Origin: Chromatiales bacterium
GTDB taxonomy: Bacteria > Pseudomonadota > Gammaproteobacteria > Chromatiales > Chromatiaceae
NCBI GenBank assembly: GCA_022360905.1
Contig: JAKSBX010000156.1
Span: forward strand, 62,001-126,000
Reading direction: 5' to 3'
Length of the DNA: 64,000 nt
Part shown: positions 53,685 to 54,727 of the stretch, piece after piece
Position numbering within the stretch: the stretch's first letter is position 1
Layout of the letters: each line of letters opens with the position of its first letter
Program-made: the position numbers and the translations under genes
Notes under the pieces: model-generated
The model's database searches: none
Told to the model about the DNA's origin: nothing
What the model saw: the letters and a program-made list of their open reading frames with translations, nothing else

Positions 53685-53852
53685 TATTCTTCTCGCAACA
53701 TGGTCTTTAGCAATTCAATATAGCAGACTATTATCCCGACACCTTCATTAGAACTTGTTAACTATAATGAATATTCCTGTAAATGAGTAATGTTTCAGGA
53801 GTATTGCGGTTTAATATTGTAAAGGAACAATTGTCGGATAGCTGTACTCATA

Positions 53853-54044
53853 TTAACCAGGCCATAAGCACAAATACACTCAGCTCGACAGGCCCGGCTC
53901 GCCGGCGAGAGTGGCACATGAATGTGCCGTTTACGAACCTAAGGAGGGAATGGCCCACAACAGCGAACTCAGCCACGCTTGTAGCCCATAACCTTTTGCG
54001 ACTTAGTGACCGGCGGTCGTGTGTAATACTTATAGCCTGGTTAG
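53853..54044. repeat. ~190-bp element bounded by imperfect inverted repeats (possible MITE or structured RNA)
   Basis: TAACCAGGCCATAAGCA (from 53853) versus reverse complement TAACCAGGCTATAAGTA of the right end (to 54044); 15/17 identical; internal palindrome CTCGCCGGCGAG and hairpin GGCACA-TGAA-TGTGCC. Confidence 0.55.
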
Positions 54045-54073
54045 TAACTATTGAAAGGCCTGTAGGAAGCACA

Positions 54074-54727
54074 ATGCCAAACCCATTTATCACTCAGTTT
54101 CAGCAGTTGCCCGATACCATCCCGATATTTCCGCTTCCCGGTGCCATCGTGATGCCTGGAGCGCAACTGCCGCTGAATATTTTTGAACCCCGATATCTCA
54201 ATATGATAGAAGATGCGCTGGCCAGTCATCACCTCATTGGCATGGTACAACCCCTGGATGAGTCAGAAAATAGCAAAAATAAGGTATTCAACACCGGATG
54301 TTCAGGCAGAATCAGCTACTATAACGAAACTCCGGATGGCAGAATCGAGATCATTCTTACCGGGGTCTGTCGTTTCGATATCGGTGAAGAACTCAAGACC
54401 ACCCGAGGCTATCGACTCATAACCCCAATCTGGACAAGGTTTGAATCGGATTACAACCCGGCCTCCTCGACATTGCTCAAAGATCGAAAGCAGATTGAAA
54501 CCACCCTCCAACGCTATCTGCTGGCCAATGACCTGCAGACCGACACTGAACAGCTGAAACAGCTTCCAACTGACCTACTGGTGAATGTCCTGGCTACTTC
54601 ACTCCCCCTTCCCCATGAGGATAAGCAATCTATTGTCGAGACTGTAGATATCGGTGAGCGACTTCAAATGCTGGTAACAAAACTGGACTTGAGCAGCTAT
54701 CCGCAAAACAGTCATTTGAAACACTGA
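54074..54727 (+). CDS. Lon N-terminal (substrate-binding) domain protein
   Basis: IPIFPLPGAIVMPGAQLPLNIFEPRYLNMIEDAL...GCSGRISYYNETPDGRIEIILTGVCRF; start MPNPFITQF; the upstream ORF extension overlaps the inverted-repeat element. Confidence 0.9.
   Translation: MPNPFITQFQQLPDTIPIFPLPGAIVMPGAQLPLNIFEPRYLNMIEDALASHHLIGMVQPLDESENSKNKVFNTGCSGRISYYNETPDGRIEIILTGVCRFDIGEELKTTRGYRLITPIWTRFESDYNPASSTLLKDRKQIETTLQRYLLANDLQTDTEQLKQLPTDLLVNVLATSLPLPHEDKQSIVETVDIGERLQMLVTKLDLSSYPQNSHLKH

Follow-up and report, generated by a model that had tools for sequence, protein, structure and literature searches.

A very probable IS630-type MITE in front of a Lon-N gene belongs to a dispersed family in Candidatus Thiodiazotropha and its relatives

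RUP is the textbook example of a non-autonomous DNA transposon (MITE) that was traced to an IS630 parent, in its case IS630-Spn1, through similar terminal inverted repeats (TIRs) (PMC2229807, PMC3049150). In Candidatus Thiomargarita nelsonii, the dsrA intron contains a MITE with TATA ends that forms a large hairpin and has been compared to Correia elements, and for the MITEs of this organism a parent insertion sequence was not found (PMC4853749). The element described here occupies positions 53853-54044 of the window, which is the whole 64,000-nucleotide stretch of DNA that was analysed, and comes from a genome assembly (G000) of 4.59 Mb in 288 contigs that is 93% complete. We assign it, with little room for doubt, to the non-autonomous DNA transposons of the IS630/Tc1-mariner type. 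It is a member of a dispersed family, and TIRs with the same terminal TATTAACCCGGC enclose related IS630 transposase genes. Comparison of the Lon-N protein places G000 nearest, among named organisms, to Candidatus Thiodiazotropha (88-90% identity), whose species are sulfur-oxidising symbionts of lucinid clams.

The coordinates of the 192-bp element are confirmed to the base. An earlier reading of the window, made from its sequence only, had described an inverted-repeat-bounded element of ~190 bp with ends matching at 15 of 17 positions, and this description is exact for 53853-54044: counted from the second base, the ends form an inverted match of 15/17 with mismatches at element positions 11 and 17, and the very first base is a further end mismatch (T/C). 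The left TIR, TTAACCAGGCCATAAGCA (53853-53870, plus strand), is of the CTAACCAGGCCATAAGTATT subtype, and the right TIR (54027-54044), which reads CTAACCAGGCTATAAGTA on the minus strand, matches the sub-family TIR pattern exactly. The TIRs are flanked by two copies of TA, at 53851-53852 and 54045-54046. The interior comprises an alternative hairpin-2 tip module (53890-53958, plus strand), a hairpin-2 arm of the MITE family (53955-53998, minus strand; GGTTATGGGCTACAAGCGTGGCTGAG.. in family orientation) that matches G000:C81, G000:C8 and a full-length copy in a related genome (G007), and what is left of the hairpin-1 right arm (54004-54024, minus strand; family orientation ACACACGACCGCCGGTCAC), which was placed by global alignment to a full-length copy, the remaining hairpin 1 being deleted. 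The longest open reading frame (ORF) of the element's own is 81 amino acids, too short for a transposase.

BLAST with the element, a check that the sequence-only reading had proposed, returned the homologues it asked about, as partial copies in G000 and across the genus; a search with the TIR pattern added further copies, with zero matches in G000 for the reversed-pattern control. Full-length relatives, present as dozens of copies in related genomes, are about 280 bp long and have 30-bp TIRs, TA flanks and two internal hairpins. One of them (G007, C38:3239-3518) has perfect arms, with a fold of -173 kcal/mol (z = -19.9), and is laid out as a 30-bp TIR, hairpin 1, the spacer CCTGTCATTCAATATCAAAAGGTTAG, hairpin 2 and a 30-bp TIR. 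The minus strand of the window copy aligns locally to this copy with a score of 140.9 (shuffle maximum 37.2, n=200), and the large gap in the alignment is the deleted hairpin 1. A second copy in the same genome as the window (G000 C193:8266-8410) is a deletion derivative of a different kind. TIR arms match at about 31/32 positions in intact copies, compared with 15/17 in the window copy, and TA is found on both sides in 30 of the 35 extracted family copies, one of the other five being mis-bounded.

The TIR pattern TATTAACCCGGCRMCYNAATA has 19+24 matches in G000 and 133+129 in one relative, and is present in 32 of 116 genomes of the taxonomic family, with reversed controls near zero (one match in each of two genomes). 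Combined with a different TIR, TTAACCCGGC(A/G)ACC..AATA, the family interior is found many more times; G007 alone has it in 34 places, some of which may be one locus on two contigs. The features by which a MITE is recognised were found here: TIRs, a target-site duplication with empty sites in relatives, and short, dispersed, multicopy elements that carry no transposase gene. A limited full-text literature search did not find a description of this family, and for TTAACCCGGC it returned unrelated matches only. Another repeat with related ends, TTACTAACCTGACCATCAGTATT, lies beside GGTGGGGCATGGCCCCACC palindromes at several contig ends of G000 (L045, L047, L048, L050), where it probably breaks the assembly. 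Elsewhere, a degenerate copy with TTGCTAACCAGGC ends adjoins the same tRNA-like sequence in three species (L054, L059, L066) and is an old shared insertion.

The hairpin-2 tip module holds the CTCGCCGGCGAG palindrome (53898-53909) and GGCACATGAATGTGCC, the GGCACA-TGAA-TGTGCC hairpin (53913-53928), both of which had been reported from the sequence and are located here, followed by GTTTACGAACCTAAGGAGGGAATGGCC. The block recurs in other genomes, with 84-91% identity in the closer, Thiodiazotropha ones. It forms the hairpin-2 tip of the same MITE family in L228 and L236, and lies inside elements with quite different ends in L227, L229-L235, L237 and other genera. Judged by these comparisons, the window copy is a family member with an alternative hairpin-2 tip and not a chance assembly of hairpins, which explains both the palindrome and the hairpin. 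The hairpin-tip module GTGGCACATGGATGTGCCGTTTACGGACCGAAGGATGGAATGGC is common to MITE-like elements from several genera that have entirely different terminal repeats (L227-L242, L013-L015). An integron attC site, suggested by the GTTATGGGC/GCCCACAAC look of the interior part, was dropped as a candidate, that part being the hairpin-2 arm of the MITE family; a REP/RAYT-type palindrome was set aside for the tip module, which occurs in the hairpin tips of several MITE families.

TA is the established target of IS630-type elements, and it is also the target that we find for this family. Two full-size insertion sequences share the main TIR subtype: a 1105-bp element (L081, in G009) has TATTAACCCGGC at both ends and encodes an IS630-family transposase (NCBIfam NF033545, 234.9 bits, cut-off 100; DDE_3 by Pfam), and a 1095-bp element (L175, in G116) has the ends TATTAACCCGGCAACCAACAA and TATTAACCCGGCAATAAAGG. 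For the CTAACCAGGC subtype the sharing concerns one end only, which in L191 (G100) reads TTAACCAGGC, the TIR subtype of the window copy; an intact transposase with the TIR of the CTAACCAGGC sub-family was not found. The partner is thus assigned from the related TTAACCCGGC TIR and this single TTAACCAGGC end. A related transposase pseudogene with five stops (G000:C105) is the only relative in the own genome, and the incomplete G000 assembly gave zero DDE_3 matches. DDE_3 (IS630-type) transposases occur in only three genomes of the own genus, so the active partner may have been lost or may lie in unsequenced parts; a matching TIR was not seen at two of the four DDE_3 loci in the genus (L082, L083), and L084 is bounded by different ends of its own. 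In the related genome G134 this IS630 clade is represented by many decayed fragments (58 first-look candidates, 18 scored matches); most of them have stops or are shortened, the product of a burst followed by decay.

The comparison of the insertion site between species dates the event relative to the divergence of these bacteria. In the window the occupied site reads CTCA-TA-[element]-TA-ACTATTG, and other species have the uninterrupted sequence CTCATAACTAGTG or CTCATAAATACTG. The empty site, with exactly one TA (CTCATA|A(C/A)TA), was found at nine loci in five species. A query of the joined flanks aligns unbroken over the junction in G002, G016, G009, G008 and G011; four of these five genomes duplicate the L067-L070 alignments, and the independent count is five species. 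From the uninterrupted sites it follows that the TA is a target-site duplication and that the insertion took place on the branch leading to G000: the element entered a TA in the intergenic DNA ahead of the Lon-N gene, once this lineage had separated from five or more other sequenced species. The sequence-only reading had offered a MITE as one of two alternatives on the clue of the TA ends, and this alternative is borne out. In Ca. T. taylori (L068, ~2750-2900), inspection by eye reveals that this MITE family has left another, separate remnant before the Lon-N gene, consisting of hairpin 2 and a right TIR that ends in GGTCGCCGGGTT; the region before this gene has thus been struck more than once.

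We propose that an IS630-family transposase acting in trans would bind the TIRs, excise the element and paste it into a TA, a route suggested by the TIRs, the TA target and the empty sites. During later decay the window copy would have lost most of hairpin 1 and part of an arm of hairpin 2, and gained mismatches in its TIRs. The window copy is thus old and damaged, and the one related transposase in its genome is broken, so that it is probably immobile now.

The Lon-N gene (54074-54727, plus strand; PF02190, E 7.3e-31) encodes a stand-alone LON substrate-binding domain protein and is followed by an alpha/beta hydrolase gene; the divergent ORF upstream had no family match. The Lon-N start codon (54074) lies 27 bp from the duplicated TA, and the start and flanking bases are conserved in orthologues. 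A mechanically called ORF (53783-54727) runs through the MITE, and automatic annotation may consequently give the Lon-N protein a false N-terminal extension. If the insertion affects the cell at all, it would do so as a side effect in cis, by parting the region upstream of 53852 from the Lon-N start codon, and a transcript arriving from upstream would gain a strong hairpin in its leader.

For the Correia/NEMIS elements of Neisseria, processing of the hairpin by RNase III and effects on translation or termination have been proposed. Co-option of the MITE as a cis-regulatory Lon-N leader, either as an RNase III-processed hairpin or through an effect on translation or termination, would add to the MITE explanation, and is suggested by the strong folds on both strands and by the position of the element, just ahead of the start codon, where it parts the ribosome-binding region from an upstream block that is otherwise conserved. 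However, the copy is degenerate, it is present at this site in a single lineage only, and a promoter inside it is not beyond chance, so that we consider co-option unlikely; with the element 27 bp ahead of the start codon, Lon-N expression may be affected in cis.

It is far less probable that the minus strand yields a functional structured RNA with a fold kept by selection, the other alternative of the sequence-only reading. The predicted fold is strong, at -81 kcal/mol (z = -4.7) for the minus strand and -68.8 kcal/mol (z = -3.5) for the plus strand, and the pairing covaries extensively. Over the whole element, two-sided changes are seen in 49 of 96 predicted pairs (family alignment of L115-L154 and L057). 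In the outer stem, 21 distinct TIR pairs show them in 20 of 30 pairs; 98.3% of cells are paired, and among distinct rows two-sided cells number 105 and one-sided cells 6, in counts drawn from family copies that are not independent of each other; every shuffle and slide control falls far below the observed covariation score. Such covariation would pass for that of a structured RNA. In contrast, the mismatches show no G-U preference on either strand. The two mismatches of the ends had been taken to be G-U wobbles of a minus-strand transcript, an argument that rests on these two; 30 distinct family copies have 9 G-U and 10 A-C mismatches in the outer stem. In family orientation, and with shared positions counted repeatedly, the counts tip towards A-C in hairpin 1 and towards G-U in hairpin 2, and in a hand tally over the whole structure the two states are about equally frequent. 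Pairing conserved for one strand, with G-U tolerated and A-C not, was not observed, and the balance fits a DNA palindrome that is read by neither strand in particular.

Other observations also argue against an RNA gene. A search of Rfam with the element gave no match near a gathering score, promoter-like or terminator-like sites in or near the element were not found beyond chance, and copies flanked by TA are scattered over many unrelated loci. The empty site in five related species means that no conserved RNA gene exists at this position. The sequence-only reading had named a single copy with neither homologues nor covariation as grounds for giving up its proposal; homologues and covariation do exist, and in this respect it holds, but they do not carry the RNA alternative, as a transposon explains both.

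A scan of the window (17-bp arms, at least 15 matches, 80-400 bp separation) finds four inverted repeats of comparable strength, the element included, so that the inverted repeat by itself is not decisive and the family homology is. The three other repeats of like strength and spacing are what might favour the explanation that unique intergenic DNA contains an inverted repeat here by chance; we give this next to no credence since the dispersed homologous copies, the exact family TIR and the TA duplication with its empty sites refute it.

A further argument against the RNA reading is that the arms change together. Differences between copies in the left arm and in the right arm are correlated (0.96), and copies that are 91-94% identical inside may be unlike at 5-9 of the 17 inner-TIR positions, in both arms. 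In one copy (L149) the hairpin-2 tip is inverted relative to other copies (score 29 inverted, 9 direct). When a polymerase switches template between inverted repeats, the two products known to result are homogenised arms and inverted spacers (PMC8604942). From the balanced mismatches and the inverted tip we infer template switching at the DNA level rather than selection on an RNA of one strand. Tentatively, and with slightly less than even confidence, we suggest that the arms of this family have repeatedly been rewritten in concert by replication template switching in the hairpins, through arm homogenisation and tip inversion; new TIR variants would then arise matched on both sides, and the inner-TIR sub-families would diverge fast as the interior stays alike. 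Alternatively, the matched arms may stem from founder effects of sub-families that already carried matched arms.

The hairpin before the Lon-N gene is a transposon relic of an ordinary kind and not a new RNA, and it is a caution against taking strong covariation of a bacterial intergenic repeat as sufficient evidence for a functional RNA. The clade of the parent transposase, the TIR sequences and empty sites are now given for this MITE family, which is widespread in Candidatus Thiodiazotropha and among its relatives. The part worth following is the concerted evolution of the arms: the family shows unusually clear matched evolution of hairpin arms, and the matched arm changes together with the inverted hairpin tip provide many natural cases for the study of template switching at palindromes. 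If the concerted rewriting is true, the many copies of the family would amount to a natural record of how quasipalindromes are corrected in bacteria.

Among described elements, RUP of pneumococcus is likewise small and non-coding, has TIRs like those of an IS630-family insertion sequence, inserts at TA, and has had its mobilisation in trans deduced from TIR similarity (PMC2229807, PMC3049150). In contrast to RUP, which is 107 bp long, AT-rich and found in Streptococcus, the Thiodiazotropha family is about 280 bp long, has two long internal hairpins and a different TIR, and resides in gammaproteobacterial symbionts. The Correia/NEMIS elements of Neisseria are MITEs with TIRs of about 24-26 bp, a terminal TA and a strong hairpin in transcripts (PMC2229807, PMC3049150); their likeness to the window family is in plan only and by description, and we do not file the element as a member (PMC2229807). 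The MITEs of Candidatus Thiomargarita nelsonii, like those described here, are found in a sulfur-oxidising gammaproteobacterium, the likeness again being by description (PMC4853749). The IS630-family insertion sequences L081 and L175 are unlike the MITE in being 1.1 kb long and carrying a transposase gene, with no resemblance to its interior noticed beyond the ends, and have the terminal TATTAACCCGGC of the TIR and the TA flanks just as the MITE family does.
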